Below, piece after piece: positions 442 to 20,864 of a DNA stretch of 22,277 bases. Every line of letters begins with the position of its first letter. Position 1 is the first letter of the stretch. The notes beneath the pieces are model-generated. The model saw only the letters and a program-made list of their open reading frames with translations. It did not search any database and was not told the origin of the DNA. The translations under genes and the position numbers were made by a program. The stretch spans positions 1 to 22,277 of the IMG/VR virus record IMGVR_UViG_3300044970_001522. One strand, given 5' to 3'. The stretch is from a virus.

Positions 442-493
442 CGGACGGTTCCCCCGCTTTCCCTCACAGAGCAAAAGCGGTATAGTTAAAGTA
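442..493 (+). promoter_or_regulatory. phage-cassette promoter P1
   Basis: -10 TATAGT (481-486) is preceded by AAAAGCGG. The spacer is TCACAGAGCAAAAGCGG and the -35 position holds a weak TTTCCC (458-463). The upstream GGACGGTTCCCCCGC resembles the GGGCGGTTTCCC element seen at other copies, and CGCTTT/AAAGCG can pair across the spacer. The predicted transcription start (about 493) falls on an ATG. Confidence 0.6.
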
Positions 494-529
494 TGGAAAA
501 CACCGCCCCCTCGCTGTGGGATTCTCTGG

Positions 530-886
530 TTGTCCCTCCCGGAGCAAAAATCCCCAGTTCACCCAATCTTCAGCCAAGCTGCTGAGCACTTTCACGTTAC
601 TTTGCGGTTTGGTGTGTTCGAGAATGAGATTCCAGACGGGATCTTAGGGAGAACTTTCACGGCTCGTGCCACTGAAAACTGCTTTGGCGACCGCATTCAT
701 GCCTTACGAGTTGAACTCCCGAGCGGGATCCGGAGTGTTTGCTTGAACAAGAACCCCCACATGACAATTTCGATGCTTCCCGGAGTTCGCCCCGTTGAGT
801 CGAATGTGATGCTTCAATCTCCACTCAGTCTAGAGAAGGTGAATTTTAATCTTTCCCTCATTTGCGAGTTTGTACCCTTTCCCTGA
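530..886 (+). CDS. 2H phosphoesterase-like protein
   Basis: 118 codons from TTG(530). Two H-x-T-hydrophobic motifs are visible, HVTL at residues 22-25 and HMTI at 77-80. This is the paired signature of the 2H phosphoesterase superfamily, which opens 2',3'-cyclic phosphates or 2'-5' linkages in RNA. A GVRPVESNVML stretch after the second motif also fits viral members. Its location among tRNA genes suggests tRNA or RNA repair. The start is uncertain: no ATG or GTG lies in this frame, and the ATG at the predicted transcription start (493) opens a different frame. Without the second HxT-context match I would call it hypothetical; the assignment is a motif-level inference. Confidence 0.6.
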   Translation: MSLPEQKSPVHPIFSQAAEHFHVTLRFGVFENEIPDGILGRTFTARATENCFGDRIHALRVELPSGIRSVCLNKNPHMTISMLPGVRPVESNVMLQSPLSLEKVNFNLSLICEFVPFP

Positions 887-889
887 CCC

Positions 890-1117
890 ATGAACAACTT
901 CCCTGAGAAAATTGTCTCCTTTAAGGTAGTCCCTCAGAGCGTTTCAGTTTACACCACCCCGGACGACAGTAAAATAACTACTGTTGTAACCGAACATGTA
1001 GTTGCTCTCGACTCTCACGGAAAACTCTGGGTGAGACTACTAATGGGGAACTACGAAGATGAACTTCCATGGAAATGTTTAACCCCTACATCCACCTCGG
1101 CAAACTCTCATGAATGA
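890..1117 (+). CDS. hypothetical phage protein, 75 aa
   Basis: ATG follows the upstream TGA by 3 nt, so it is probably co-transcribed and translationally coupled with the 2H gene. The product begins MNNFPEKIVSFKVVP and is beta-rich in pattern (alternating Val/Thr with polar residues), with an acidic YEDELPW segment near the C-terminus. No motif or family is recognised. Its stop overlaps the start of the next gene. Confidence 0.7.
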   Translation: MNNFPEKIVSFKVVPQSVSVYTTPDDSKITTVVTEHVVALDSHGKLWVRLLMGNYEDELPWKCLTPTSTSANSHE

Positions 1118-1373
1118 ACAACAAGAGTACTACGATGAGCTGGAGCAGTACATGAGAGACCTTGCAGCCGAACTCGGAGTTTCTGTGAGTTGCGCTCAAG
1201 ACGTGTGGTACTTGCGCACTCGATCTCGACACACTCCGACGCTGGAAGCCGAGCTAATTGCACTTCACGCTGCGGGTAGTCCCCCGAACATGTGTGACTT
1301 CGGTGTAACTGATGCCACCCAGGAAAACATTCGGAAAGTTTGTGAAAACGTCGGGAGTCTTCATGGGAACTGA
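1110..1373 (+). CDS. conserved small phage protein (PPNMCDFGV family)
   Basis: 87 codons, with the ATG overlapping the preceding stop by 8 nt. The product starts MNEQQEYYDELEQYMRDLA. It carries ELGVSVSCAQDVWYLRTRSR, then LEAELIALHAAGSPPNMCDFGV, a pattern I recognise from a recurrent small phage protein of unknown function. The helical N-terminal half with an acidic/aromatic start and the PPNMC-x-x-GV end are the recognisable parts. It is next in the same overlapping gene chain. Confidence 0.75.
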   Translation: MNEQQEYYDELEQYMRDLAAELGVSVSCAQDVWYLRTRSRHTPTLEAELIALHAAGSPPNMCDFGVTDATQENIRKVCENVGSLHGN

Positions 1374-1542
1374 AAGAGACGGGGAAGACGCGGAACTGTT
1401 CCGATTTTGGGCACAAGAAATGTGCTCTAACCGCAGACAGGTATCCAACGCTTTAGAGTGGTGCCGAACACCATCCGAAGTTCGAAGCGCACTCTCGGCG
1501 ATTCGTGCGCTGAACAAAGCTTGTCCAAAAAACAACACCTGA
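1363..1542 (+). CDS. hypothetical protein, 59 aa
   Basis: I chose ATG(1363), which overlaps the TGA of the upstream gene, over an earlier in-frame ATG at 1312 that would lie deep inside it. The product (MGTERDGEDAELFRFWAQ...) has an acidic start and a helical, Arg/Ala-rich body ending KACPKNNT. No family is recognised. It is part of the 530-1704 overlapping run. Confidence 0.6.
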   Translation: MGTERDGEDAELFRFWAQEMCSNRRQVSNALEWCRTPSEVRSALSAIRALNKACPKNNT

Positions 1543-1554
1543 GGGATACCTGTC

Positions 1555-1704
1555 ATGGCGTCAAACGTGAAAGACAACACCGTTGAAGTTCGCTTGCTGA
1601 GTGAGATCCCGTATCAAATTCCCGTAGTGAGAGAGCCCGAGTGGAAGCGAAGCGTCTACAAGCAAATTCAAGCCGAGTTTCGACTCGATCGAGAAAGATG
1701 CTAA
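1555..1704 (+). CDS. hypothetical protein, 49 aa
   Basis: A 49-codon frame (MASNVKDNTVEVRLLSEIPY... to RLDRERC) begins 12 nt after the previous stop and ends 20 nt before the tRNA-Thr. It fits the packing of the surrounding genes and has a sensible soluble composition (charged C-terminal helix). No function is recognised and support is by position and composition only. Confidence 0.5.
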   Translation: MASNVKDNTVEVRLLSEIPYQIPVVREPEWKRSVYKQIQAEFRLDRERC

Positions 1705-1724
1705 GGTAGGGCCGGGGAGAACCC

Positions 1725-1796
1725 ACCCACGTAGCACAGCGGTAGTGCAGCCGTTTCGTAAGCGGCAGGTCGCTGGTTCGAATCCAGTCGTGGGTT
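1725..1796 (+). tRNA. tRNA-Thr, anticodon CGU
   Basis: The cloverleaf is clear: acceptor ACCCACG/CGTGGGT, D arm GCAC/GTGC, anticodon stem GCCGT/GCGGC with loop TTCGTAA (anticodon CGT), T arm CTGG/CCAG with GTTCGAATC, discriminator T, no encoded CCA. It reads ACG. The ACCC at 1721-1724 repeats the start of the acceptor arm. Like the two Arg tRNAs it serves C- or G-ending or rare codons. Confidence 0.93.
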
Positions 1797-1861
1797 TTGC
1801 CCCCTTGTCCACTTCCCTAAGCCAACCTTGGTTACTACCCTCTAACTCCCGCACAAAACAC

Positions 1862-2181
1862 ATGACCGCACCTGATATTACATCAGTCGAAACCACCGGA
1901 AGCGTTGTAACCCCAGTGACGTATGAGACTGTATACTGTACGAAGTACGCCCTTTCCAAAGGAATTTTAAGGTCACTGGAGAGGCTACGGACCACGGAAA
2001 TTTCTCAGAAAAGCCCTATAAAGCCTACCGTACCCTATTTCTTGGCAGTAGCGACTGGCACCGAAGCTGGGACGAAGCAGTAGTGGACGCGGAGAGACGG
2101 TTAGGTCGGAAGATTGACTCACTGAAAAGGAAAATCGTTGAGTTAAACCAGCTTAAGTTTGTAGAGGTTGACCGACCCTGA
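1862..2181 (+). pseudogene. frameshifted phage protein (YETVYCTKYAL family)
   Basis: ATG(1862) opens a frame reading MTAPDITSVETTG...TYETVYCTKYALSKGI, which matches a small phage protein family that I recognise. That frame then degenerates and stops at 2083. From 1969 the -1 frame continues the expected protein: KVTGEATDHGNF, KPYKAYRTLFLGSSDWHRSW, then DEAVVDAERRLGRK and a Lys-rich coil, to TGA at 2179-2181. The switch is at GGAATTTTAAGG (1961-1972); one extra T in the run would restore a 106-codon gene. It is either a deletion, a homopolymer sequencing error or -1 recoding. Function of the family is unknown. Confidence 0.7.
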
Positions 2182-2216
2182 ACCTTGTCTGTGCTGTGGC
2201 TCAAGGTTGCCCTTTC
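2181..2216 (+). terminator. probable terminator hairpin
   Basis: A perfect 7-bp inverted repeat AACCTTG (2181-2187) / CAAGGTT (2202-2208) with a 14-nt loop, followed by GCCCTTTCC. It overlaps the TGA of the frameshifted gene and stands directly before a promoter cassette, which is where a module boundary is expected. The weak T tract lowers confidence. Confidence 0.5.
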
Positions 2217-2231
2217 CACCTGAACAAGAAC

Positions 2232-2300
2232 GGGTAACCGGTTGCCGTAGGGCGGTTTCCCGGCTTGTTTCTGCGGAGCAGAAGCGGTATACTTACTTTA
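2232..2300 (+). promoter_or_regulatory. phage-cassette promoter P2
   Basis: The near-palindrome GGTAACCGGTTGCC (2233-2246) is followed by GGGCGGTTTCCC (2250-2261), -35 TTGTTT (2265-2270), a 17-nt spacer and -10 TATACT (2288-2293). The spacer region contains the dyad TTCTGC-GGA-GCAGAA and ends AAGCGG. Start of transcription should be near 2300, giving a leader of about 20 nt to the next ATG. Confidence 0.8.
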
Positions 2301-2319
2301 GTGCAAACCCTCAAGTCCA

Positions 2320-2484
2320 ATGACCCCCCTCGAAGCCTTTGAAACAATCTACAGCAGGTTGAACTTTCTGGAACGTGATTGTTTGTATGGCGAAGAAGCT
2401 GAGGTTGTTCGAGAGGCACTAGACTCAATGGCCATACTTTGTGGTGGTTATTTTCCACCCGAACCCGACTCCGAATCCTACTAA
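2320..2484 (+). CDS. hypothetical protein, 54 aa
   Basis: First gene behind promoter P2. The product starts MTPLEAFETIYSRL and looks helical and acidic (GEEAEVVREALDSM), ending FPPEPDSESY. TAA overlaps the next ATG as TAATG, a coupling arrangement seen repeatedly here. It resembles small phage helical proteins but no family is named. Confidence 0.65.
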   Translation: MTPLEAFETIYSRLNFLERDCLYGEEAEVVREALDSMAILCGGYFPPEPDSESY

Positions 2485-2993
2485 TGTTGTTAAGTAAGCA
2501 CAGTGAAAGAGCTGACCCCCCAAACCGAACTTGGTGTGAAATGAGTAAGGAAACTGATGATCAGAGCTTAGCACCACGTATACTAGCAATGTGCAAGAGG
2601 CGTGGTTGGTCACTGCACTGGTCGGCTCGTGGCGCATACCTACACCTTGAGTCATCAGAACTAATTGAGGCGCTTCGTGGAAAGCGTGGTGACCCGAAGT
2701 CGGAAGCCGCAGATGTTCTGCTTGTTTTGATGTCAATCACAGAGGCTAATGGGATCTCCTGGTCAGACGTTGTTGCGCAAGCTACAGCAACCTGTGCACG
2801 GCTGGAGACTTGCGACCCGTACCCTGGAGAAGAGAGACAAGAGATTGAACGCGCCATGATTCAAACCCCTCACACTCGCTCTACCCCGTTTCGAATGCCT
2901 GCACAAAATACAGTCTGGACCCTTGTTACTGCGTTTCAAACTATACTCTTGTGTTGGGAAATTGCGGTGGCCTTAGACCTTTTTCCCCAATAA
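2484..2993 (+). CDS. MazG-like nucleoside triphosphate pyrophosphohydrolase
   Basis: All-alpha NTP pyrophosphatase (MazG-like) fold is indicated by ESSE (residues 56-59) and EAAD (74-77), the ExxE...ExxD Mg-binding pattern, with surrounding LHLESSELIEALRGK and EAADVLLVLMSI. Such enzymes hydrolyse (d)NTPs to monophosphates; phage copies adjust nucleotide pools or (p)ppGpp-type signals. ATG(2484) overlaps the upstream TAA; ATG(2541), giving MSKETDDQS, is an equally good start closer to the domain. Unusually, the C-terminus (about residues 145-169, WTLVTAFQTILLCWEIAVAL) is strongly hydrophobic, as if membrane-anchored. Confidence 0.8.
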   Translation: MLLSKHSERADPPNRTWCEMSKETDDQSLAPRILAMCKRRGWSLHWSARGAYLHLESSELIEALRGKRGDPKSEAADVLLVLMSITEANGISWSDVVAQATATCARLETCDPYPGEERQEIERAMIQTPHTRSTPFRMPAQNTVWTLVTAFQTILLCWEIAVALDLFPQ

Positions 2994-2994
2994 A

Positions 2995-3144
2995 ATGCTA
3001 GCATACATCCCTGTTTTAGACAGGGAGCCATTTTGTTATCCTCATTCGGGGGCAGACACTCCGGTGTTCCTACCTCGAGTAGCTTGGATTTCGGCTCGGT
3101 CTGGCTCTCAACCTGGTTTCTGGACGCACTGCGCATACCACTAA
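2995..3144 (+). CDS. hypothetical protein, 49 aa
   Basis: ATG(2995) lies 1 nt after the MazG-like stop and TAA forms TAATG with the following gene. The 49-residue product (MLAYIPVLDREPFC...THCAYH) has two cysteines and several Trp/His. No family is recognised. The two precise junctions are the best evidence that it is real. Confidence 0.5.
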   Translation: MLAYIPVLDREPFCYPHSGADTPVFLPRVAWISARSGSQPGFWTHCAYH

Positions 3145-4732: not shown

Positions 4733-4742
4733 CTAGCGCACA

Positions 4743-4874
4743 ATGACCCTGGGGTTACGAGTTTACTTTAACCGAGTGCTACCAACACTAAGGGGTGTGA
4801 AATCACCCTTTAAACGAATGTTCTCTGGGCGTACCACCGGAAATTCTACATCCGTTTTCGACACTCAGTTCTAG
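4743..4874 (+). CDS. small basic protein, 43 aa
   Basis: ATG(4743) follows the upstream TAG by 10 nt, and its TAG ends 3 nt before the haloperoxidase ATG, so it fills the gap. The product (MTLGLRVYFNRVLPTL...) is basic in its middle (RGVKSPFKRMFSGR) and Ser/Thr-rich at the end. No family match; it may be a leader peptide or simply spacer. Confidence 0.4.
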   Translation: MTLGLRVYFNRVLPTLRGVKSPFKRMFSGRTTGNSTSVFDTQF

Positions 4875-4877
4875 TCT

Positions 4878-6554
4878 ATGAAACCATTAACCCTGGTCGA
4901 GCTAATTGCAAAGGAATCGTTGGTCGAGCTGCGCTACAGCGATGCCCTAAGCAGTACTCTCCCCAGCTTCAGCCGCTTTCAAGTAACAGTGAACGGGGTT
5001 CGCCGCAATATCACTGGACCGGCAACGCTAATTGACGGTGGAAAAACCGTTCGCTTAAATCTTGCCTCAGCGGTCCTCGCCACAGACACCGTCGCTGTCA
5101 CTTACACCAGCGTCAACAGATTCGACAAGATCGGTTACGGCGACATTCGCTCTCTCAGCACCAATGAAAAGGCGATCTTCTTTCGCAACCAAAAGGCCGC
5201 CAACATCACGCCACCGGTCAATCAGCCTGGTCCCGACCAAGTTCTGTTCTGGATTAGCTGTGCTCTGGAAGCAATCCAATCAGCGGGCAGCAATGGAAAA
5301 CCTGGAGTGCCTCCTACCACGGGTAGTCGTCTGATGGCAATGCTTTCCACGGCAATGTTGGACACTCGGGCAGCGTTCGGTGATCAAGTGGCCTTCTACA
5401 AGATCGACCAAAACGCACCCGCTGCCGCTAGCGTAGATGCCGCGTTGATTGGTGCGGCCTACCGCATTCTTTCGTTGGAGCTTCCTGGAGAACAAGAAAT
5501 ACTCCAAAAGCACTACAAATCAAGTCTGGCCAATCTGACGGGAACCTCGCAGAGCATTCACTCTGGCTTAGCCCTGGGGTCCGGAATAGCTGATCAAATC
5601 CGCTCACTAAGATCCAACGACGGATCAACGAATAATACACCTTATCAACCACCTGCTAACGGCCTTCCGGGGTACACTTGGATGCCCGCTGTGACGGGGC
5701 CTACTGCAGGTGCAGCCTTGGGCCCAAACTGGGGATCAGTCTCCCCGTGGGGTTTAGAAAGTAAACACACATATGGGACCAACGGTCTACAGGGCAAGCC
5801 AGACGTGAATTTGGACCTGTACGCCAGAGACTTAGCTGAAGTGCGTTTGTACGGCGGACTAACAAACACTGCAACCACCACCTCGCGCCGCAATGCTGAT
5901 CAGACGGACATTGCTCTTTTTTGGGCTTACGATCGGCCTGACACCTATAGGCCGTATGGTCAGTTGTTTGATATTGCGACTGAAATAGCAACGAACCAAG
6001 CAACAACCCCAGCTAACAACGCTAGGTTATTCGCTAGCTTAAGCGTCGCCATGGCAGACGCCGTAACCGTGGCATGGAAGGAAAAATACGACAATGTTCA
6101 GCCTCGACCGTGGGACGTAATCACTGGCAGTTTTTCCGACGAAGACGGCTCAGACCTCACTGTCCGAGACACAGAGTGGAAGTCGTTGCTTTCCTCCATA
6201 AACGGAGTACAATCTCCACCGTTCCCTGACTTTATATCTGGCCACTCAGTAATGGGCGGGGTATTTGCGAGTGTAATGACACACTTTTTCGGCGACAAGC
6301 TCGTCTGGTCAACGACTTCGCAGGACCTTCCCGGAAAGTCTCGATCTTTTGACGGTCGCATTGCAAACGGGAGTCTAGGTGATATAAGCTCCGTGACAAG
6401 CTCTAGCCTGTGGAAAGATAACAGCTTCTTTGAAGCTGGCTTGGAAAATGCCATAGGACGTGTTTATGGTGGCGTTCACGTTCGAGAAGCATGCGAGGAT
6501 TCTTTTCTCTTGGGAGTTGAGATAGGAAATTCCACAGTGCAAAAGCTGAGCTAG
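4878..6554 (+). CDS. SwmB-fused vanadium haloperoxidase / PAP2-type protein
   Basis: 558 residues. Residues about 14-80 (LVELRYSDAL, FQVTVNGVR, KTVRLNLASAVLATDTVAVTY) match the SwmB beta domain of cyanobacterial surface and adhesion proteins. The remainder is a vanadium-dependent haloperoxidase of the PAP2 acid-phosphatase superfamily. Vanadate/phosphate-site motifs are intact: K403-x6-R410-P411 (KYDNVQPRP), S454-G455-H456 (DFISGHS) and R528-VYGGV-H534. Members oxidise bromide or chloride with H2O2, or act as phosphatases. SwmB suggests surface attachment, but no N-terminal signal peptide is visible. Largest gene in the window; probable auxiliary metabolic gene. Halide preference cannot be read from sequence. 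Confidence 0.88.
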   Translation: MKPLTLVELIAKESLVELRYSDALSSTLPSFSRFQVTVNGVRRNITGPATLIDGGKTVRLNLASAVLATDTVAVTYTSVNRFDKIGYGDIRSLSTNEKAIFFRNQKAANITPPVNQPGPDQVLFWISCALEAIQSAGSNGKPGVPPTTGSRLMAMLSTAMLDTRAAFGDQVAFYKIDQNAPAAASVDAALIGAAYRILSLELPGEQEILQKHYKSSLANLTGTSQSIHSGLALGSGIADQIRSLRSNDGSTNNTPYQPPANGLPGYTWMPAVTGPTAGAALGPNWGSVSPWGLESKHTYGTNGLQGKPDVNLDLYARDLAEVRLYGGLTNTATTTSRRNADQTDIALFWAYDRPDTYRPYGQLFDIATEIATNQATTPANNARLFASLSVAMADAVTVAWKEKYDNVQPRPWDVITGSFSDEDGSDLTVRDTEWKSLLSSINGVQSPPFPDFISGHSVMGGVFASVMTHFFGDKLVWSTTSQDLPGKSRSFDGRIANGSLGDISSVTSSSLWKDNSFFEAGLENAIGRVYGGVHVREACEDSFLLGVEIGNSTVQKLS

Positions 6555-6573
6555 TACTTGTTGTACCTTGACT

Positions 6574-6624
6574 AGGGGTTTCCCCGCCTTGCTTTCTTGG
6601 GGGTCACACGATATGATTATACCA
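6574..6624 (+). promoter_or_regulatory. phage-cassette promoter P3
   Basis: AGGGGTTTCCCCGCC (a shortened form of the upstream element), -35 TTGCTT (6589-6594), 17-nt spacer, -10 TATGAT (6612-6617). No dyad in the spacer. It lies 20-70 nt after the haloperoxidase stop and begins the LRELCAELL-type gene block. Confidence 0.65.
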
Positions 6625-6759: not shown

Positions 6760-7402
6760 CTTGCGTGAACTGTGCGCTGAACTCCTATTCGCCTTAGATG
6801 AGGCTTCTGAGGCACTTGACCGTACGAGCGACTGCTGCTATGTCAGTTTTCCAGAGGTCTACGCTCAGTGCTCAGACCTAATCGGAAAACACGACAAGCT
6901 CCTTGAAACAGCTCGGGCCGCACTGAATGGGCCGGTATTAGACGAAACCAACGATCTCGCCATAGGGCGTCGTGGACTAAACAACACAGAGGTCCTTAGA
7001 GACGCCATCTCTTGGTTAGGTTGGAGACCAGAGGGGAAACCCAGCCTGCCGGGCTCTGACATCATTTCAAACTCAGACGAGATACGACGTTGGAACGCCA
7101 TTGCTCGCGCCCTGGCTACCTTAGCAGGTCCCCTTTCGTGTTACGGGAAAGTCTATGATGCTTGCCCGGACCATGAAGAAGGTACTAGTAGGGTCCTGAG
7201 CATAGCTAAAGAGATCGACAAGTGTTTCGGCGCTGTCGAGAAGATTCGGCTCGTTATGTCTACGGAAGAACAACAGCGGTACGCGGCACGGATCGCTAAA
7301 ATTGATGCTCGAAACAAGGTAGCTCAACAAAACTACACGAAAACTATAGAAGACTTTAAAAAGTCGATGCCGCCAACCAAGCACCGCACTAAAACGCCAT
7401 GA
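6746..7402 (+). CDS. uncharacterised protein with LRELCAELL N-terminus, 218 aa
   Basis: The first 25 residues (MFNPNLRELCAELLFALDEA) match a helical module that I associate with many picocyanobacterial and cyanophage proteins of unknown function. Residues after about 45 read LLETARAALNGP, also part of that pattern. The C-terminal third is basic and coiled (STEEQQRYAARIAKIDARNK). Cysteines are scattered with no metal motif. The stop overlaps the next ATG (ATGA). The next gene has a related start, so these may be paralogues. Confidence 0.7.
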   Translation: MFNPNLRELCAELLFALDEASEALDRTSDCCYVSFPEVYAQCSDLIGKHDKLLETARAALNGPVLDETNDLAIGRRGLNNTEVLRDAISWLGWRPEGKPSLPGSDIISNSDEIRRWNAIARALATLAGPLSCYGKVYDACPDHEEGTSRVLSIAKEIDKCFGAVEKIRLVMSTEEQQRYAARIAKIDARNKVAQQNYTKTIEDFKKSMPPTKHRTKTP

Positions 7403-8043
7403 GTTATAACTTTCGTAAGCTTTGCACAAGGCTGCTCGCAGCTTGCAATTCTTACTTGTTCTTTACAGACGCTGAGAAAACCACTGCGTCCCAAATGGAG
7501 GAGCGACTGGAGGGGGTCCTGAAAGAGGCTTCCCTTGCACTGAGCACCCTTGTTTCAGAAGACCCCACTTACATTCCCTCAGGCCAGGGTCCGGAGTCCC
7601 GTTTGACGTCTGAGAATCTGGCCTGGGTGGACGAGAAGCTGAAGGAGCCGGGCTGGGCCAGGCAATTTCTGATCTCTGCCGGCATTCTAGATTCCGACGG
7701 TCACTGGAATCGTTCTTACTGGCCTGACGACGGCGAAGCCGGTAACACTTTAGGTTATTACATGGACCACCCTGAGTTCTACTGCGACCTAAAAGAGGAC
7801 GTTGTTGTGCAGAGTGTTTATTCTGGGGGACAAGAAACCGATCAGGATGTATTTGAAGAGCAAAGTAACAAACCCACACGCTCAGAAATTCTGAGTTGGA
7901 TAGAAGACCGATCAGCTTGGGGCTCAGACGACTACCTTGGCCGAGTGGCTCTTATAGTAGAAGAAGCCCTGGCATACTGGTCCCCTAAGTCTAGAAGGGG
8001 GGCGGTTTCCCCTCCTCGTTTTGCGGAGGAAAAGCCGCTATAA
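7399..8043 (+). CDS. uncharacterised protein with related N-terminus, 214 aa
   Basis: It begins MSYNFRKLCTRLLAACNSYL, similar to the start of the upstream gene, and has a Glu/Leu-rich helix after it (MEERLEGVLKEASLALSTL). The C-terminal part contains SEILSWIEDRSAWGSDDYLGRVALIVEEAL. Its last 18 codons are encoded by promoter cassette P4 and read GAVSPPRF-AEEKPL; the stop codon lies inside the -10 box. The natural C-terminus may therefore have been extended by arrival of the cassette. Confidence 0.7.
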   Translation: MSYNFRKLCTRLLAACNSYLFFTDAEKTTASQMEERLEGVLKEASLALSTLVSEDPTYIPSGQGPESRLTSENLAWVDEKLKEPGWARQFLISAGILDSDGHWNRSYWPDDGEAGNTLGYYMDHPEFYCDLKEDVVVQSVYSGGQETDQDVFEEQSNKPTRSEILSWIEDRSAWGSDDYLGRVALIVEEALAYWSPKSRRGAVSPPRFAEEKPL

Positions 8044-8051
8044 TAAAGGAG
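7998..8051 (+). promoter_or_regulatory. phage-cassette promoter P4 (inside a gene 3' end)
   Basis: GGGCGGTTTCCC (8000-8011), -35 TCGTTT (8016-8021), 17-nt spacer, -10 TATAAT (8039-8044), with dyad TCCTC/GAGGA across the spacer. It overlaps the last codons of the upstream gene. Predicted start near 8051, about 17 nt before the next ATG. Confidence 0.75.
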
Positions 8052-9077: not shown

Positions 9078-9536
9078 ATGACCATTCAAACAAGACAAGC
9101 AGTTTTTGAAACCAACAGTTCAAGCACTCACTCACTCAGTATCTCTTCAAGTTCCACAGATCTCCTTGATACTTTGCCCTTGAACGAACAGGGGGAAGTG
9201 GTCCTCAATGGGGGCCAGTTTGGCTGGGAAGTGGAAGACTACTCCGATGCGAGCACTAAGGCGAGTTACGCGGCCATTTACGTTTCCGAGTGGTCCGGGG
9301 AAAAGAGTGCGGAGTTCAAGGAAGTTCTTGACACAGTGATCAAGCAGCAAACGGGTTGCTCAAACGTTGTATACGATTTATCTACAGACTGGTCTCACCC
9401 ACGGGAAACATCGTACATCGACCACCAGTCTGTTGAAGGGGGTCAGCTAGACTACTTGTTCGAAGACCCAGAACTTTTGCGACAGTTTATCTTCAACCCT
9501 CGCAGTGTCCTTCACACCGACAATGACAACTACTGA
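9078..9536 (+). CDS. FETNSSSTHS-family phage protein
   Basis: The N-terminus reads RQAVFETNSSSTHSLSI, a signature that I recognise from a widespread small protein family of phages and bacteria with unknown function. A Ser/Thr-rich stretch (ISSSSTDLLDT) follows. The remaining about 115 residues are acidic and aromatic (GWEVEDYSD, YLFEDPELLRQFIFNPRS). It overlaps the radical SAM gene by 14 nt. The proximity makes it a candidate substrate or partner, but that is inference; family members also occur alone. Confidence 0.75.
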   Translation: MTIQTRQAVFETNSSSTHSLSISSSSTDLLDTLPLNEQGEVVLNGGQFGWEVEDYSDASTKASYAAIYVSEWSGEKSAEFKEVLDTVIKQQTGCSNVVYDLSTDWSHPRETSYIDHQSVEGGQLDYLFEDPELLRQFIFNPRSVLHTDNDNY

Positions 9537-10431
9537 GACAGTCCTTCACGCGTACAAAAACGGTAACTGCAACGTTACTTTGTGGTCTGGCGGCACCAAG
9601 ACTCGAGAGACTCTGGACGCAGACCACCCTTGGGCAGAACACCCGGAAAGCATTGACATTAAGGTTACAAACTTTTGCGACCTGGCGTGCCCTTACTGCC
9701 ACGAAAACTCCACTCTCGAAGGAAAGCACGGGGATCTGAACCGCTTACTTACAGTTTTGGAGCCTTTACCTCCAGGGGTGGAGCTGGCGATCGGGGGAGG
9801 AAACCCGCTATCTCACCCTGACCTTATACCGTTCCTTCGCAAAGTTAAGACCAAAGGGTTGGTGGCTAATTTAACCGTAAACGAGAGACACCTGGAACCC
9901 TACAAGTTTCTTTTGAGCTACTTGCGACGGAAAGATCTAATAAAAGGTATTGGTGTTTCCGTTACAGGTTCGAACCTACCTCTGGTAAAACAATTTCTGG
10001 AAAACAATCCGCACACCGTGTTTCATGTGATTGCTGGAGTGCACTCGCCCAGAGTTCTATCCGACCTAAGCTCCCTCCCAAACAGCAAAACTCTTGTGCT
10101 CGGGTACAAAACCTTTGGCCGTGGTATCCAGTTCTACGGTAACAAGACCAAGAAGCTTCTTTCCGAATGGTACCGGGCCATCCCAACTTTCCTTGGAAAG
10201 ACACACTTGTCGTTCGACAACCTTGCTGTGGAACAACTTAACATCAAGAGATTGCTCACGAACGAGGGTTGGTCAAAGTTTTACATGGGGGACGACGGTA
10301 GCTTCACAATGTACATCGACGCTGTCGAAGGAACGTACGCAAAAACAAGTAGGAGCAGCGAACGCACCTTGTTCGACAGCACTGACTTAATCTCTTACTT
10401 TCAAAGCTTGACTCCGAAGAGGTTCGGTTAA
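9523..10431 (+). CDS. radical SAM enzyme
   Basis: 302 codons from ATG(9523); a GTG at 9505 would add six residues. C52-x3-C56-x2-C59 (FCDLACPYCHENS) is the canonical [4Fe-4S] SAM-cluster motif, and AIGGGNPLSHPDL is the SAM-binding GGE-like strand. No further cysteines follow, so there is no SPASM or Twitch auxiliary cluster. The domain is a compact single-cluster type, with FHVIAG and KTLVLGYKTFGRG as later barrel strands. Substrate unknown: peptide, nucleotide or tRNA modification are all possible. Its overlap with the FETNSSSTHS gene points to linked function. Confidence 0.88.
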   Translation: MTTTETVLHAYKNGNCNVTLWSGGTKTRETLDADHPWAEHPESIDIKVTNFCDLACPYCHENSTLEGKHGDLNRLLTVLEPLPPGVELAIGGGNPLSHPDLIPFLRKVKTKGLVANLTVNERHLEPYKFLLSYLRRKDLIKGIGVSVTGSNLPLVKQFLENNPHTVFHVIAGVHSPRVLSDLSSLPNSKTLVLGYKTFGRGIQFYGNKTKKLLSEWYRAIPTFLGKTHLSFDNLAVEQLNIKRLLTNEGWSKFYMGDDGSFTMYIDAVEGTYAKTSRSSERTLFDSTDLISYFQSLTPKRFG

Positions 10432-11523: not shown

Positions 11524-11653
11524 GTCCGACGAGCTCTACGTCTTAACCTTACCTGGTTGGTGTGAGTCCACTGGAGTTCAGTCCGAGATCTCTTTCGCAC
11601 AGCTGTTGGGGGTGCCTCTTTCTCTACACATTCCTGCGCCCCTAGGCGGTTAG
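11516..11653 (+). CDS. possible small gene lacking a standard start
   Basis: The frame from CTG(11513/11516), overlapping the previous TAA, reads LSKSDELYVLTLPGWCEST then GVQSEISFAQLLGVPLSLHI and ends at TAG inside the promoter cassette (GGCGGTTAG). The composition looks protein-like, but there is no ATG, GTG or TTG. It could start with CTG, be reached by frameshifting from the upstream gene, or be a chance frame. Confidence 0.25.
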   Translation: MSKSDELYVLTLPGWCESTGVQSEISFAQLLGVPLSLHIPAPLGG

Positions 11654-11716
11654 CCGGTTGCTCTAGGGCGGTTTCCCCGCTTGTTTTCTCGAAGAGAAAG
11701 CGGTATAATACATATA
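11644..11716 (+). promoter_or_regulatory. phage-cassette promoter P5
   Basis: GGCGGTTAGCCGGTTGC dyad, GGGCGGTTTCCC (11666-11677), -35 TTGTTT (11681-11686), 17-nt spacer, -10 TATAAT (11704-11709). The spacer carries TTCTC-GAA-GAGAA and ends AAGCGG; the arms also extend as CCGCTT/AAGCGG. Best-matching copy in the window. It drives the EF-Ts gene with a leader of about 30 nt. Confidence 0.85.
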
Positions 11717-11746: not shown

Positions 11747-12355
11747 ATGGCTTCCATCCCCCCTACAATCCTACAAGTTAAGTCCCTGCGAGAAAAGACC
11801 GGTGCTGGCCTGATTCTCTGCAAAGAAGCACTCATTTTTTCTAGCAGTGACGAAGCCGGTGCGATCACGTGGTTGCGGCAGAGAGGAGTGGCCTTAGCCG
11901 ATGGTAAGGTTGGTCGGAGCGCACGAGAAGGTACTGTGGGCAGCTACATTCACACTGGCGGTAAGGTTGGAGTCCTTATCGAGGTCAACTGCGAAACAGA
12001 TTTTGTGGCCAAATCGGAGCCTTTTCAGGATCTCGTACGCAATTTGGCCATGCAAGTTGCAGCGTGCCCCTCTGTGTGCTACGTGTCGATCTTTGACATT
12101 CCTGAGGAGACTCTCCTTGAGGAGACACGGATTGAGTCGGGAAAAGCAGACCTTTCGAGTAAACCTGAGGCAATTCGAAACAAGATCGTTGAGGGTCGTG
12201 TGGCAAAGCGATTCAGAGAGCTGTCTCTCATGGACCAGCCCTACATCAAAGACAACTCAATGAGTATCGAAACATACGTGGAGAACTTCGCTGCGGTAGT
12301 TGGCGAAAACATCGTTGTGAAGCGATTCGTACGTTTTGTCCTCGGCAGCTCCTGA
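11747..12355 (+). CDS. tsf: translation elongation factor Ts (viral, short form)
   Basis: 202 residues with clear EF-Ts landmarks: VKSLREKTGAGLILCKEAL (N-terminal UBA-type domain binding EF-Tu), GSYIHTGGKVGVLIEVNCE, T84-D85-F86-V87 (the TDFV motif that inserts into EF-Tu to expel GDP), LMDQPYIKD, and VGENIVVKRFVRF at the C-terminus. It resembles cyanobacterial EF-Ts but ends right after RFVRFVLG, without the extra tail of host proteins. MMDCKKAL is replaced by LILCKEAL. EF-Ts recycles EF-Tu and is recruited by some viral RNA polymerases. It sits behind its own strong promoter, so may be made early. Confidence 0.93.
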   Translation: MASIPPTILQVKSLREKTGAGLILCKEALIFSSSDEAGAITWLRQRGVALADGKVGRSAREGTVGSYIHTGGKVGVLIEVNCETDFVAKSEPFQDLVRNLAMQVAACPSVCYVSIFDIPEETLLEETRIESGKADLSSKPEAIRNKIVEGRVAKRFRELSLMDQPYIKDNSMSIETYVENFAAVVGENIVVKRFVRFVLGSS

Positions 12356-13239: not shown

Positions 13240-14376
13240 ATGACAATTACACGAAAAGAAATTGAAGACGGGATGATCCTGTTTTGCAAGTCAGGCAGCC
13301 ACGCCTATGGTCTCAACACCGAGATGTCTGACTTGGACTTTAAGGGCATCTGTGTGGCTCCACAGCGGTTTTACACCACTCTCGAAACATTTGAGCAAAA
13401 GGATAAAGGTTGGGCAGAGCACGGGAAGGAAACTATCGAAACTAGATTCCCTGAGTTAGATAACTCGGATTCAGTGGTGTACGGCATTCGCAGGTACCTG
13501 AGCTTGTTGCGGTCGCAGAACCCTAACATTTTAGAGATGCTCTGGCAAACTCCAGACAGTTATCTGTACCTAGACTTTCTAGGGCAGTCTCTAATTGACA
13601 ACCGAAAGAAGTTAATTTCCAAAAGAATCTCTGGCACATTCGTTCAGTACGCAAGGTCCCAGATCAAGAAAATGGAGACTCACCGCAAGTGGCTGTTAGA
13701 CCCTCCGACACAGCGACCGACATGGGAAGACTACGGGGTTTCTTCGCCGAGCTTAACCCCCTCTCAAATCGAGTCATTCATTGAGTACTTGTACCTGCTG
13801 ATTAAAGACAGAATCGAATACTACCAACCTTCAGTCGAGCTGTACGAGTTACTCAACGACCGAGTTGATTGGAAAGGAATTTTGAAGCAGAGTGTCTTAC
13901 CGGAAGAGTGCTTCGACGAGACGCAGAAAATCACGAGGGCAAGTTACGAGTACATGGCCCTTCTTCACTCAAGCCAGCAGTACCGGGCCGACTTAAAAAG
14001 ATGGAACAACTACCAAGATTGGCTAGTCAATCGGAACGTAAAACGGTCCGAAATCGAGCGAGCTTGCGGGTACGACGGGAAGAACGCCAGCCACTGTGTT
14101 CGACTTATGAAAATGGCCATTGAGGGAATGCGAACCGGAGAGCTTCTTGTGAATAGAAAGTTGGTTGGAGACGCAGATTTTCTTCTGGACATTAAGTACG
14201 GCAGGATTACGTATGACGAACTAAGCACAATTGTAACTCAGCTCTTTAAGGAGGCTGAGCACGTGGTGAAGAACGAGTGCGTCTTGCCGAACACGGTAGA
14301 TGACCAACTCATCAACACTCTCTGTGCTGAGACTGTGGAAAAATTTCAAAGTCTCGGTTGTATTGAGAACCGGTGA
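13240..14376 (+). CDS. Pol-beta-superfamily nucleotidyltransferase
   Basis: 378 residues. G19-S20-HAYGLNTEMS-D31-L-D33-F is the GS...DxD metal and nucleotide site of the DNA polymerase beta/minimal nucleotidyltransferase superfamily (PF10127-type, predicted). The following region has NILEMLWQ and YARSQIKKMETHRKWLL, typical of these phage and bacterial homologues. The C-terminal half is helical with conserved GYDGKNASHCVRLMKMAIEG. Such enzymes transfer a nucleotide to RNA, antibiotics or protein; the substrate of this family is unknown. Its stop abuts the next gene, which overlaps it if GTG(14373) is the start. Confidence 0.85.
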   Translation: MTITRKEIEDGMILFCKSGSHAYGLNTEMSDLDFKGICVAPQRFYTTLETFEQKDKGWAEHGKETIETRFPELDNSDSVVYGIRRYLSLLRSQNPNILEMLWQTPDSYLYLDFLGQSLIDNRKKLISKRISGTFVQYARSQIKKMETHRKWLLDPPTQRPTWEDYGVSSPSLTPSQIESFIEYLYLLIKDRIEYYQPSVELYELLNDRVDWKGILKQSVLPEECFDETQKITRASYEYMALLHSSQQYRADLKRWNNYQDWLVNRNVKRSEIERACGYDGKNASHCVRLMKMAIEGMRTGELLVNRKLVGDADFLLDIKYGRITYDELSTIVTQLFKEAEHVVKNECVLPNTVDDQLINTLCAETVEKFQSLGCIENR

Positions 14377-14910: not shown

Positions 14911-14984
14911 GAGGCGGTTAACCGCTTGCTCCGGGGCGGTTTCCCGGCTTGTTTCTGCGTAGCATAAACGGTATAGTATTTACA
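14911..14984 (+). promoter_or_regulatory. phage-cassette promoter P7
   Basis: Perfect palindrome GCGGTTAACCGC (14914-14925), GGGCGGTTTCCC (14934-14945), -35 TTGTTT (14949-14954), 17-nt spacer, -10 TATAGT (14972-14977). The spacer dyad is TTCTGC-GTA-GCATAA with one mismatch and ends AAACGG. Transcription should start near 14984. Confidence 0.8.
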
Positions 14985-15897: not shown

Positions 15898-15936
15898 CTA
15901 CACTAAAAACACTCTCCGGTAACTCCCGCAAAGTCC

Positions 15937-16107: not shown

Positions 16108-16119
16108 ACTGTTAACACA

Positions 16120-16907: not shown

Positions 16908-17113
16908 TAATGCTACTGAAGGGACCCGATGGGAGAAAATATATAGCCGACTGGACCCCTGACAGGGAAAGTTGGTTAGTAACTGAGTTTGGTCCTAGAA
17001 TTGGTTCCGATGTGCTGCCGTCAGAGTGGTGGGACAAGGAAGCCAGAAATCACTGGGGGCGATCCCAAACTTACGACAATCTTGATGCGTTTGCCATACT
17101 AGCATCCCACTAA
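16904..17113 (+). CDS. hypothetical protein, 69 aa
   Basis: ATG(16904) overlaps the upstream TGA. The product (MIMLLKGPDGRKYIADWTPD..., ESWLVTEFGPRIGSDVLP, SEWWDKEARNHWGRS) is Trp-rich, with a beta-hairpin-like start. No family recognised. A 54-nt spacer follows without visible signals. Confidence 0.65.
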   Translation: MIMLLKGPDGRKYIADWTPDRESWLVTEFGPRIGSDVLPSEWWDKEARNHWGRSQTYDNLDAFAILASH

Positions 17114-17167
17114 GACTCCGACACGTTAACCCATCAGAACCAGGCAGGGGCCTAAATCAGTAGGAAA

Positions 17168-17863: not shown

Positions 17864-17952
17864 CCCTTACCCATGGTGCGAGACTCTAACCCTTACCTTG
17901 GGTCTTATTTCCACCCAAGCAAGCCCGCTCAAACAAGAACCATACAAGGAAA

Positions 17953-18834
17953 ATGACAACTTTCGACAAATGCCTCGGAGCCTTTATTGGCCTTGCGATC
18001 GGTGACGCGATGGGTGCGCCAGTGGAGTTCTCTCCACCGGGGACATTCGAGCCAGTCACAGGCTACCGAGAAGGAGGACCCTTTAATCTGCCGTCAGGCT
18101 ACTGGACGGACGACACATCGCAGGCTGTTTGCCTTGCCGAGTCTTTTATTCATTGCAATGGGCAGATCAATCTTGGAGACCAAATGCGTCGGTACTCCAA
18201 CTGGTACGAGTACGGAAGGAACAGCTCAACAGGTGTCTGTTTTGACATCGGCAATGGAACACTCCGTGCAATTGAGACTTTTCTCGTTGAGGGGTCTTTG
18301 GGTCTCTATCCGGAGAATTCGAAAGGAAACGGGTCTTTGATGCGTTTGTCCCCCGTTTCTATTGTTTACCACAAATCGAGTGAGGGGGACGCTGTAGCAG
18401 CTTGTGACGCGTCATCCTCAACAACCCATGGCCACTTGGCATCCGACCTATGCAAAGATCTCGGTCGTTTGCTGCACCGATACTTGAATGGTACGGGGGA
18501 GAAACCTGAAGTCTCGCCGGAGGGAATTGAAAATTCCGGGTACGCACCGAAGTCCTTAAACGCCGCACTCTACCATTTCGGGTCAACTTCGTCCTTTGAA
18601 GAGGCCATCCTGCAGGCTGTGAACTACGGGGACGACTCAGACACGGTTGCTGCGATCACGGGACAGCTAGCAGGTGCTTACTACGGTTACAAGGCTATTC
18701 CTAGGCGATGGATTTCAGGGTTGCACGACAGTGAAAGACTTTTGCTCATAGCAAGCACTTTGTACGACCTTTCGTTTGGGGCGGTTTCCCCCCCTTGTTT
18801 CTACTCTGAAATAACGTATAATACCCTTACTTAA
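17953..18834 (+). CDS. ADP-ribosylglycohydrolase (DraG/ARH family)
   Basis: 293 residues with the family's signatures: GAFIGLAIGDAMGAPVEF (N-terminus), T52-D53-D54-T55 (metal-binding WTDDTSQ), NGSLMRLSPV, and G226-D-D228-S-D230-T with AAITGQLAGAYYG (second metal site). Such enzymes remove ADP-ribose from arginine or other residues using two Mg2+/Mn2+ ions. It would reverse ADP-ribosylation. The partner transferase-like gene lies two genes downstream. The last 20 codons are encoded by promoter cassette P8 and read FGAVSPPCFYSEITYNTLT, probably a dispensable extension. ATG has AAGGA upstream. Confidence 0.9.
   Translation: MTTFDKCLGAFIGLAIGDAMGAPVEFSPPGTFEPVTGYREGGPFNLPSGYWTDDTSQAVCLAESFIHCNGQINLGDQMRRYSNWYEYGRNSSTGVCFDIGNGTLRAIETFLVEGSLGLYPENSKGNGSLMRLSPVSIVYHKSSEGDAVAACDASSSTTHGHLASDLCKDLGRLLHRYLNGTGEKPEVSPEGIENSGYAPKSLNAALYHFGSTSSFEEAILQAVNYGDDSDTVAAITGQLAGAYYGYKAIPRRWISGLHDSERLLLIASTLYDLSFGAVSPPCFYSEITYNTLT
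18778..18830 (+). promoter_or_regulatory. phage-cassette promoter P8 (inside a gene 3' end)
   Basis: GGGGCGGTTTCCC (18778-18790), -35 TTGTTT (18795-18800), 16-nt spacer, -10 TATAAT (18817-18822). A small GTTTC/GAAA dyad spans the spacer. It lies within the terminal codons of the glycohydrolase gene and drives Pth2-like and ADP-ribosyltransferase-like genes. Confidence 0.8.
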
Positions 18835-18850
18835 GCTCTCGAAACCGCAA

Positions 18851-19258
18851 ATGCATTTCTACGCGATCACACGCCGCGACCTTGACCCTGCTCAGCAAGC
18901 TATTCAGGCGGCTCACGCACAAGTTGAGTTTGCGAGAGTACACCCTGATTCTTTAGCCCAAGACCACCCGCCTTTCGTATGGCTATCGGCTGAGAACAAG
19001 TGGGAGCTTTTGCAACTCTCGTGTGTTCTTCGGAGTTACGGACTCTCGGTGGTAGAATTTCACGATCCAGACTACAAGGGGTTTGACCCCAGTGCCCTAG
19101 CGTGCCTGGTCGACGAAGACCACCGTTATTTGCTCTCTGAGTTCCCTTTATGGGTTCCCCTCAGGGCTACGCCGGTTGCAATCAAGGGGCAAACGGTAGC
19201 CTCACATTTTTTCTCACTACTGCGGGAAGGCAGCTTGGAAAACCACGCGGAGGGGTAA
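18851..19258 (+). CDS. Pth2-like peptidyl-tRNA hydrolase
   Basis: 135 residues; RRDLDPAQQAIQAAHAQVEF, VWLSAENKWELLQLSCVL and VVEFHDPDY...DPSALACL follow the Pth2 (PF01981-type) plan: conserved Gln/His helix, central Asn, and EPD...TA near the C-terminus (here HDPDY). Pth2 cleaves peptidyl-tRNA, freeing tRNA that has dropped off ribosomes. It is normally archaeal/eukaryotic or viral, not the usual bacterial Pth. Placed behind promoter P8 and before the ADP-ribosyltransferase-like gene, with 9 nt between. The active-site Asp/Lys set is less clear, so activity is inferred. Confidence 0.75.
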   Translation: MHFYAITRRDLDPAQQAIQAAHAQVEFARVHPDSLAQDHPPFVWLSAENKWELLQLSCVLRSYGLSVVEFHDPDYKGFDPSALACLVDEDHRYLLSEFPLWVPLRATPVAIKGQTVASHFFSLLREGSLENHAEG

Positions 19259-19267
19259 AGTACCTTA

Positions 19268-20488
19268 GTGCTTGCTTCGGTTGTACGAATGTACGGAGAA
19301 ATTTCCCCCGATACCCTGGCGTTAATACACGACTTCACACGTTGTGTAAAACCGGACGGCGGGGTGTATGGTACAGCAGGACAGTGCCGCAAGGGGGTGG
19401 AGTCCGCAAAGGAAACTCGCAGCATTCGACGAGAGTCTGTACTTAAGAGTGTAGAACTTTACGAAAAGAATAGCTCTGACGCTCTAAACAAGAATCTAAG
19501 GACTCTTGAGGGAATGCTTTTGTCAAAGCCAGGGTACCGCACACCCCTCACAGAGAGTGCCCTAACCGCAATGCGATACCTTCGCCTAAAGACTCACTTG
19601 GCGAAGAAGGCAGAGCAAACACAACAAAAGGGTGCCCTTCAGGATCAATACGAAGAATTAGTGAGAAACTCACCGAAGTACACGCAAACACCCGGATCGA
19701 GCAAACCTTTACCGAAAGCCACGGTTGAGAAAGAGGTTGAGCTTCTTGAAAAGGAACTTGAAGCACTGAAGAAAAGAGTCCGAGCAATAGGAGAGCCTAC
19801 CGACGACGTGTCAAGAGAGAAGCTTTTACACCTGCAAAAGGAAGGTATGGAGCTCGGTCGAACACTTTCGAGTGCTCGAAAGGGCACCTTGTTACCGCCG
19901 ATTCTCACTTCTGTGTACGAACGACAAGGTTTTCATGCTCGACCGGAAGTTGTTGCAACACGATCGGAACTGGAATCAAGAAAAGATATAGCCCGGAACC
20001 CCGACGGAAGGCCAATTGTGGCTTATCGCGGCGTAAGTTCAAGTGAGTTTTCATTGCAGTTCAAGGGTGGTGGTCCCGAAGGAGACAAGCACTTTCCTGG
20101 TGGAGGGATTTACGGGAGTGGGAGTTACTCTGCTTCTTCCCCTTTGTCTGGTAAGGTTAAGCATGACAAGTGGGCCCAAGAGACAGCGAAAGACTATACA
20201 GGTGACTGGAGAAACGCCACAACCATGGTTTCAGCCTTTGCATTCCGGTCTGACGCTCGACTCGTACAGTTTGAGGGGGACGGGAAGCAGTTTAAGCAGT
20301 GGGAAGAAGAAACATTGAAAAAAGCAAGAGAGACGACGGGCTACGACCATCACGATGTTGGGTCCGCCGCTGCATCTCTTGGAGTGCATGCGTATAGAGT
20401 TCCACAGACCGATGGCCAAGACTTCTGGGTTGTTCTCAACCGTGGAGCAATCATCGTAGCGAACGACCCTGAATTAACACCGGACTAA
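19268..20488 (+). CDS. ADP-ribosyltransferase-like protein
   Basis: 406 residues from GTG(19268); ATG(19289) is a possible start. Residues 24-43 (TRCVKPDGGVYGTAGQCRKG) form a Cys-bounded module that I associate with cyanophage and cyanobacterial proteins. Residues 115-205 are a coiled-coil region. The C-terminal domain has R254-GV after VAY, then GGGIYGSGSYSAS (S284/S286), and FWVVLNRGAIIV at the end: the R-S-E ADP-ribosyltransferase layout. The expected E/Q-x-E is not present; the last motif reads Q384-D385, so catalysis is uncertain. Could modify host protein early in infection, with the upstream glycohydrolase as its eraser. Confidence 0.7.
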   Translation: MLASVVRMYGEISPDTLALIHDFTRCVKPDGGVYGTAGQCRKGVESAKETRSIRRESVLKSVELYEKNSSDALNKNLRTLEGMLLSKPGYRTPLTESALTAMRYLRLKTHLAKKAEQTQQKGALQDQYEELVRNSPKYTQTPGSSKPLPKATVEKEVELLEKELEALKKRVRAIGEPTDDVSREKLLHLQKEGMELGRTLSSARKGTLLPPILTSVYERQGFHARPEVVATRSELESRKDIARNPDGRPIVAYRGVSSSEFSLQFKGGGPEGDKHFPGGGIYGSGSYSASSPLSGKVKHDKWAQETAKDYTGDWRNATTMVSAFAFRSDARLVQFEGDGKQFKQWEEETLKKARETTGYDHHDVGSAAASLGVHAYRVPQTDGQDFWVVLNRGAIIVANDPELTPD

Positions 20489-20489
20489 A

Positions 20490-20645
20490 ATGAACCTTAA
20501 CGACCCCACAACCAGTCGCACTCTCGCGGCACTCATTCAGAATATTGCAGCTGATTCCCGCGAGCAATTTCGACAGGATGCTGCGCAGGCCCCAGACATG
20601 AAAACCTTTCTGAAAGGGTTGAACCGATACAAATCGACTCTGTGA
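20490..20645 (+). CDS. hypothetical protein, 51 aa
   Basis: ATG(20490) begins 1 nt after the preceding TAA. The product (MNLNDPTTSRTLAALIQNIA, DSREQFRQDAAQAPDMKTFL) is helical, Gln/Ala-rich and ends KGLNRYKSTL. TGA overlaps the next GTG (GTGA). No family recognised. Confidence 0.6.
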   Translation: MNLNDPTTSRTLAALIQNIAADSREQFRQDAAQAPDMKTFLKGLNRYKSTL

Positions 20646-20830
20646 GACTTTCTTGCAGTGAGACTGCTTATGGCGAAGCAATGGAAAAGCTCTTCACAGC
20701 TCAGTGGAACATTCCTCAGGCCGCCACCGCACTCGGGAAGCCAGTGAGCGAAGAAAGCTGGGACGAAACGAAAGAGTTATTCCGTGAATATTGTTTGGAA
20801 CACACACCTATCGCCTTCAACGCCGGGTAG
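20642..20830 (+). CDS. conserved small phage protein, 62 aa
   Basis: GTG(20642) overlaps the upstream TGA. The product (TAYGEAMEKLFTAQWNIPQA, ATALGKPVSEESWDETKE, LFREYC) matches a small, acidic helical phage/cyanophage pattern that I recognise as AQWNIPQAA...W..TKE.FR.YC. The pattern around IPQAATALG resembles a small helix-turn-helix, but that is not certain. Function unknown. Confidence 0.65.
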   Translation: MRLSCSETAYGEAMEKLFTAQWNIPQAATALGKPVSEESWDETKELFREYCLEHTPIAFNAG

Positions 20831-20864
20831 TTTACCAATTCGAGAAAGCGATATACTGTAAAAG
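20829..20864 (+). promoter_or_regulatory. phage-cassette promoter P9 (partial)
   Basis: -10 TATACT (20852-20857) preceded by CGAGAAAGCGA, closely matching the GAGAAAGCGG end of cassette P5. The -35 region is weak (about GTTTAC) and the GGGCGGTTTCCC element is missing. Probable start near 20864. Confidence 0.55.

Follow-up and report, generated by a model that had tools for sequence, protein, structure and literature searches.

The 22,277-nucleotide (nt) stretch of viral DNA analysed here (the window) comprises positions 1-22277 of a virus record of 189,900 base pairs (bp), IMGVR_UViG_3300044970_001522 (referred to as G000), which is classed as linear and, being so classed, is perhaps a fragment. 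The window carries a dispersed composite element consisting, 5' to 3', of one or two guanine-cytosine (GC) dyads about 21 bp apart, a TTGTTT/TTT-type -35 box, a 17-bp spacer and a TATAGT-like -10 box, with the predicted transcription start (+1) on a start codon or some 15-26 nt before one. On the sequence evidence given below, this repeat very probably serves a family of large cyanophages as their promoter of the early class. The exact core GGGCGGTTTCCC is found at 2250, 8000, 11666, 14934 and 18779, each time with a -35-like box behind it and, 16-17 nt further on, a box resembling TATAAT, as a preliminary description of the window had reported for these five places, and a sixth exact core lies at 21674. 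When up to two mismatches were allowed, the window contained 10 core matches, compared with 2.0 (standard deviation 1.4, largest 8) in 100 dinucleotide shuffles. The features are as follows, with scores from the matrix scan described below.

425-436, minus strand: dyad-like site upstream of copy 1, GGGTGACCGCCC (reverse complement GGGCGGTCACCC), with two mismatches to the core
443-486, plus strand: copy 1, score 34.7; core GGACGGTTCCCC 443-454, -35 box TTTCCC 458-463, spacer 464-480, -10 box TATAGT 481-486
2233-2246, plus strand: upstream palindrome of copy 2, GGTAACCGGTTGCC, seen in the sequence
2250-2293, plus strand: copy 2, score 42.4; core 2250-2261, -35 box TTGTTT 2265-2270, spacer 2271-2287, -10 box TATACT 2288-2293
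2267-2274 and 2278-2285, plus strand: hairpin arms of copy 2, loop GGA
6573-6617, plus strand: weak candidate, TAGGGGTTTCCC ... TATGAT, score 13.4, a score at which simulated genomes give about 0.5 matches per strand
8000-8044, plus strand: copy 3, score 37.6; core 8000-8011, -35 box TCGTTT 8016-8021, spacer 8022-8038, -10 box TATAAT 8039-8044
11645-11661, plus strand: upstream site of copy 4, GGCGGTTAGCCGGTTGC
11666-11709, plus strand: copy 4, score 39.4; core 11666-11677, -35 box TTGTTT 11681-11686, spacer 11687-11703, -10 box TATAAT 11704-11709
11683-11690 and 11694-11701, plus strand: hairpin arms of copy 4, loop GAA
12859-12903, plus strand: weak candidate, AGCGGGGTTCCC ... TACACT, score 8.7, near the simulated background (about 2 matches per strand)
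14914-14925, plus strand: upstream palindrome of copy 5, GCGGTTAACCGC
14934-14977, plus strand: copy 5, score 40.6; core 14934-14945, -35 box TTGTTT 14949-14954, spacer 14955-14971, -10 box TATAGT 14972-14977
14951-14958 and 14962-14969, plus strand: hairpin arms of copy 5, one mismatch, loop GTA
18779-18822, plus strand: copy 6, score 28.4; core 18779-18790, -35 box TTGTTT 18795-18800, 16-nt spacer, -10 box TATAAT 18817-18822
21674-21718, plus strand: copy 7, score 27.9; exact core 21674-21685, TTTACC 21690-21695, poor -10 box TAAGCT 21713-21718

Among the nine copies listed in the preliminary description, the five with exact cores are excellent and copy 1 is good, the candidates at 6573 and 12859 are weak, and the site at 20830, where the GC core is missing and the spacer measures 15 nt, was not counted as a copy. 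That description had also read TTGTTT in copy 3, where the -35 box is TCGTTT, and had missed the core at 21674, the spacer hairpin, the leaderless starts and the second promoter class. The further upstream palindromes that it mentioned are present at 2233, 11645 and 14914, some 20 bp before the core. Its division of the window into modules agrees with the position of the copies before genes, though copies 3 and 6 overlap the 3' ends of upstream frames (7399-8043 and 17953-18834, respectively). Copy 4 precedes a gene for EF-Ts (ATG at 11747), and copy 7, which is conserved in the related records G001, G017 and G009, precedes an RlpA-like gene.

The portal protein of G000 is 62% identical to that of Synechococcus phage S-CBWM1 (MG450654, Aokuangvirus), the nearest named relative found; PHROG matches include portal, DNA polymerase and PhoH, and a high-light-inducible protein is encoded. 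We infer that G000 is a large cyanophage related to S-CBWM1, with a cyanobacterial host. A DNA search of the window against phage records gave no match. Related records were grouped by portal identity and shared promoters into set A (G000, G001 and G017, the window's group), set B (G004 and G005) and set C (G002). The scan matrix had two parts, the core and an extended -10 box, with a gap free over 8 lengths, and was trained on 31 hand-picked cores, those at 21674, 27586, 33563, 61722 and 80557 being among the ones left out; for these training copies the scan is in part circular, which applies neither to the strand bias nor to the finds in other records.

Scanning the 189.9-kb record gave 44 forward and 2 reverse copies at a score of at least 14, against 0.5 per strand in six first-order simulated genomes, and all but one of the forward copies fall within the first 98.5 kb. 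The plus strand of G000 carries 275 of 284 genes by one gene calling and 271 of 277 by another. Over six overlapping records the next gene lies on the element's own strand for 212 of 215 elements (40/41 in G000, 83/84 in G001, 37/38 in G017, 19/19 in G004, 18/18 in G005 and 15/15 in G002), and 190 of the 215 lie between genes (34/41, 73/84, 34/38, 18/19, 16/18 and 15/15 in the same order), compared with 17-22% of random positions; these sums are not independent, because many orthologous promoters are shared. The promoter proposed in the preliminary description thus withstands the genome scan suggested there as a check: the copies are mostly intergenic, they share the strand of the gene that follows, and start codons are repeatedly found exactly at the predicted +1. 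A long stretch of G001 (49.8-121.1 kb) runs opposite in orientation to 1-70 kb of G000, either as a true inversion or through assembly, and its promoters keep the strand of their genes. The layout is that of sigma70-type promoters: many copies have their -35 and -10 boxes separated by 16-18 nt and lie ahead of genes on the same strand. A generic promoter scan was rejected as a detector: it returned 9 sites where 11.8±3.5 were expected, none of them these copies, which a generic consensus misses because TTGTTT is a poor match. The composite pattern was found in 60 stretches on 27 contigs of the viral_contigs collection, and in genome_contigs there were 31 single matches, none titled as a cyanobacterium, where by our own estimate about 22 are expected by chance from the 18 fixed bases; at that stringency the pattern is taken as absent from hosts.

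Transcription from a -10 box is taken to start 7 nt after it. In these elements start codons pile up at the predicted +1, 12 nt on from the first base of the -10 box: an ATG or GTG opening at least 40 codons stands exactly there in 27 of 153 set A elements, 21 of 32 in set B and 13 of 26 in set C, while positions 10, 11, 13 and 14 have at most 2. (Near-copies were removed at separate thresholds for these counts and for the tandem-dyad, folding-energy and coupling counts below.) A peak confined to one position supports both the -10 box and the +1, and it predicts, from sequence, that many mRNAs made from these promoters are leaderless. Set A has a second, broad start-codon peak at 27-38 nt, giving 5' leaders of about 15-26 nt. 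Two window copies have ATG at +1: copy 1 (493, a 30-amino-acid frame, whose coding is doubtful because, in the orthologue alignment, G001 lacks one base after the ATG) and copy 5 (14984, a 59-amino-acid frame, where the gene caller prefers an overlapping frame from 15031); neither frame is the gene caller's choice. Leaderless phage transcripts are remarked upon as frequent in the excerpted text of PMC5312081, and no description of leaderless cyanophage genes was found in the titles and abstract openings of a partly covered literature. The letters ATGGAAAACACC recur in the first codons after many promoters of the leaderless type (493-504 in the window and several G001 and G017 loci), and the similarity among the copies that bear them extends past +1 into the gene.

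Likeness over about 70 nt, reaching in some copies into the start codon (ATGGAAAACACC), is also what a dispersed mobile repeat that happened to carry a promoter might show, such as a repetitive extragenic palindrome (REP) or a miniature inverted-repeat transposable element (MITE). We regard this as highly improbable: the elements keep a fixed strand and distance relative to the gene, each of the many spacer arm types is itself a palindrome, and distant relatives too have the element ahead of the sigma gene.

The GC block is a sequence-conserved dyad that is often doubled 20-22 bp upstream. A second upstream site (at least 10 of 14 letters) accompanies 63 of 153 elements in set A, 28 of 32 in set B and 20 of 26 in set C, and lies at 20-22 bp in 56, 26 and 16 of them, respectively; control windows 200 bp upstream gave 7/153, 2/32 and 1/26. 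The dyad centres fall near -66 and -44.5, and the core occurs inverted at 24590 and before 40136. When core halves were exchanged between copies, the observed folding energy was reached in 60 of 300 swaps in set A and 44 of 300 in set C, so the halves are uncoupled there, and in 2 of 300 in set B, where coupling is weak. A core conserved in sequence with uncoupled halves looks like a protein-binding sequence, and the dyads are probably an activator site, their placement near -44.5 and -66 suiting an activator more than a repressor; the weakly coupled halves of the upstream site in the window's group (z -2.7, 0/300) speak against a pure protein site. The preliminary suggestion that the upstream block is bound by a regulator is thus plausible, since the block is conserved, often repeated two helical turns upstream and uncoupled between its halves in the window's group. 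A dimeric activator, from phage or host, could quite possibly bind the dyads and recruit RNA polymerase with a sigma70-type factor, and we judge this somewhat better than even. The three GC-dyad strings were not found in the literature looked at, a small part of that holding related motif strings.

The same description had offered a terminator or insulator as the alternative for this block, and a terminator scan flagged core hairpins followed by T-rich but interrupted stretches at 7997, 11666 and 14931, and the core window is the most stable (-3.8 kcal/mol). An intrinsic terminator or insulator before each promoter would nevertheless be a surprising reading, as the loop letters CGGTTT are conserved, stem coupling is absent in the window's group and G002 and only weak in G004 and G005, and terminator-like sites overall are near chance (28 versus 23.7±4.2). 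The coupling test of the core halves gives that alternative no clear support.

The spacer between the -35 and -10 boxes is an inverted repeat with variable arms (GTTTCTGC, GTTTTCTC, CTTTCC, GTCTTTGC, TTGTTTTC and others; 49 distinct arms in all). Stems of at least 5 Watson-Crick pairs are formed by 100 of 182 unique spacers of sets A and C (set B lies outside this count and was tested separately for coupling), against 17.7±3.6 after letter shuffling and 56.6±5.0, largest 71 over 200 rounds, when right halves were swapped between copies. The element search ignored the left arm, so the pairing was not built in. Folding energies likewise couple the two spacer halves in set A (z -9.6, n=141) and set C (z -4.4, n=26), no swap of 300 reaching the observed value in either, and in a sliding window the set A spacer has -1.93 kcal/mol versus -0.77±0.05 for shuffles. 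A contiguous-stem measure, computed after removal of near-copies (27/41, 62/163, 17/37 and 18/26 kept), was equalled, at one cut, by 0, 2, 25 and 0 of 600 swaps in the four sets, respectively; since it penalises stems with a single mismatch too severely, energies and a one-mismatch count were added. The stem is centred 12 nt before the -10 box in 65 of the 100 spacers, a C-G pair closes the stem in 67 of 83 distinct hairpins, and 12 of 52 distinct cases have GNA triloops (G1/A3 association p=0.0004, with related copies counted), which is only a hint of a triloop preference. Orthologous promoters can carry different stems that still pair, as at G000 32508 and G001 87538, where the downstream sequence is 100% identical, and again at 94095 and 165595; 50 of 126 orthologous pairs differ by at most one letter and are uninformative. 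The dyads and the -35/-10 boxes are family-wide, whereas the coupled hairpin characterises the window's group and G002 and is weak or lacking in the other relatives.

An inverted repeat at this place might instead be a protein operator rather than a structure. MerR-like regulators sit at a dyad centre near -24, as an operator here would require, the arms are partly conserved (TTT...AAA), and among stem mismatches G·T and A·C are equally frequent (8 and 9, few cases), which fits a protein site as well. We think an operator rather unlikely, in view of the 49 distinct arms, pairing that runs in to loops of 3-5 nt, a spacing of the common TTTC and GAAA that shifts with stem length, and whole stems exchanged between orthologues; a single conserved half-site at fixed spacing, of the MerR type, was not found. 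The hairpin could also work in read-through RNA, in processing or stability, given that copies lie within long same-strand gene runs and that a few loops are GNRA or UUCG. The equal numbers of G·T and A·C mismatches and the fixed register of the stem to the -10 box favour a function in DNA over one in RNA, no Rfam family was matched, and a role in RNA appears very improbable.

Turning to a structural role in DNA, the N4 virion RNA polymerase promoters offer a comparison. According to the excerpted text of PMC4496689, physiological supercoiling suffices for the hairpins of N4 promoters to extrude, for which a certain closing pair and certain letters in the loop are required, the other stem letters being free to change while pairing is kept; the N4 P1 hairpin placed between the rrnB -35 and -10 boxes (Dai et al. 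1997, cited there) abolished activity until gyrase was inhibited. Horwitz and Loeb (1988), as cited in the excerpted text of PMC6060812, constructed a promoter inverted repeat whose extrusion under supercoiling represses transcription. The spacers described here share with the N4 promoters small hairpins with variable but pairing stems and a favoured C-G closing pair and GNA loop (in the window's group and G002 only), and differ in position, since the N4 hairpins, in that excerpt, lie at -17 to +1 and are read by a giant phage polymerase, whereas these lie between sigma70-type boxes. With the constructed promoters they share an inverted repeat within the promoter, which in the rrnB construct, as here, lies between -35 and -10 and which is here kept by pairing; those were, as far as the excerpts go, single laboratory promoters, and the present set would be a natural one of dozens, with gating as a candidate property.

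Because the favoured closing pair (67/83) and triloops (12/52) are features that N4 extrusion needs, the hairpin might be thought to activate the promoter, as for the N4 virion RNA polymerase. This seems improbable. The largest called frame in the 189.9-kb record, which is possibly incomplete, is 1590 amino acids, compared with about 3,500 residues for N4-type polymerases in the excerpted source, so no polymerase of N4 size was seen and a hairpin needed for activity becomes less likely; the boxes are sigma70-like, and many copies, if they work, do so without a stem. We propose a role of opposite sign, in which the spacers of the window's group retain the capacity to extrude as a small DNA hairpin with its centre near -24. 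Part of the -35 box falls within the left arm of this hairpin, and extrusion would break the duplex geometry of the promoter. Since the natural promoters share the layout of the N4 hairpin in rrnB, negative supercoiling may turn these early promoters down, a suggestion that we put forward tentatively. More tentative still is the idea that they form a natural family of supercoil-gated sigma70-type promoters, in which the topology of the phage DNA would lower the early genes together as control passes to a phage sigma factor. The use of hairpin extrusion as a switch by natural promoters has long been debated, and to our knowledge the cases described are mainly constructed promoters and N4. No description of such a family was found in a literature search whose coverage left most subscription journals outside.

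Several observations weigh against parts of this interpretation. Stems are lost between orthologues (84393 versus G017 11737, and 31559 versus G001 88850), some copies of the window's group have no stem, and the swap null of 56.6 in 182 means that about half of the paired spacers are expected from arm composition alone. Coupling was not significant in set B (42/300), G009 (40/300), S-CBWM1 (121/300) or the pool of G003, G015, G006 and G012 (166/300). Called starts fall within one base of +1 in only 6 of 41 G000 elements, and Pfam and PHROG scans of some, not all, early proteins gave no candidate activator. A phage GyrA-like gene is found both alongside hairpin spacers and where these are lacking, and the two are therefore not linked. 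The GyrA/ParC-like protein (PF00521) of G000 is encoded at 99333-101354, at the border between two promoter regions; GyrB (PF00204) was found in 0 of 6 records.

The only forward composite copy beyond 100 kb at a score of at least 14 (177852) precedes a gene for a sigma-70 region-2 protein. Just upstream of the orthologous sigma gene, at least one dyad and -35/-10-like boxes are present in all 15 records examined, of which seven hardly differ from the window's phage and another five are mutually alike, leaving perhaps five independent lineages. Sigma70_r2 (Pfam) was detected in 5 of 6 records, G002 being the exception, though tblastn found a sigma gene on the G002 contig; the second sigma gene of G000 (183436) has no such composite element upstream. 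A second motif, GGGTAAA[AG], occurs in G000 32 times forward and 4 times reverse (9 and 4 for the reversed-letter control), and 30 of the 32 forward copies lie beyond 100 kb, in the structural half. It is promoter-like and often stands some 28-50 nt before genes of that half. In the mechanism that we propose, the composite promoters would act first, making the phage sigma factor among other products, and this factor probably goes on to activate the structural half's GGGTAAA[AG] promoters. A succession from early composite promoters through sigma to the second motif is the simplest reading, its timing being inferred.

S-CBWM1 has two sigma genes and the GGGTAAA[AG] motif (37 forward, 2 reverse) in common with G000, the motif being less confined to one genome half. 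It has 14 distinct forward places with an element of the type GGGCGGTAAACCGCCC-TTTACA-N17-TAAGCT, one of them before the sigma gene, and at 132307 a minus-strand element precedes the gene gp173 (131361-132239), which likewise lies on the minus strand. The S-CBWM1 element differs in a longer dyad abutting the -35 box and in the lack of significant spacer coupling; a scan of that genome for TATA boxes with upstream stems gave nothing above background. T4 early promoters are repeated strong phage promoters read by host RNA polymerase, and the present set resembles them in having dozens of similar -35/-10 promoters in an early region, and departs from them in its tandem GC dyads, in a spacer that pairs with itself and in the many start codons located at +1.

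Dozens of natural copies, and orthologues bearing different stems, bring the question of extrusion as a switch within reach of plain exchanges of spacers. Single-base predictions of start sites follow from the set, as do predictions of numerous leaderless phage genes and of a cascade running from early promoters through sigma to late ones, in a cyanophage family that has a cultured relative in S-CBWM1.

A few genes deserve mention in their own right. The phage EF-Ts gene (11747-12355; PF00889, E 4.6e-31), which had no PHROG match at E 0.001, is immediately preceded by a strong composite promoter. Positions 76150-77637 of G000 encode a Tet/JBP-type 2-oxoglutarate oxygenase (PF12851), which has relatives in S-CBWM1 and others, and the presence of this gene suggests that bases of the phage DNA may be oxidised. 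The early region within the window further encodes a PAP2/vanadium-peroxidase-like protein (4878-6554), a radical SAM protein (9523-10431), an RlaP-type nucleotidyltransferase (13240-14376) and an ADP-ribosylglycohydrolase (17953-18834).

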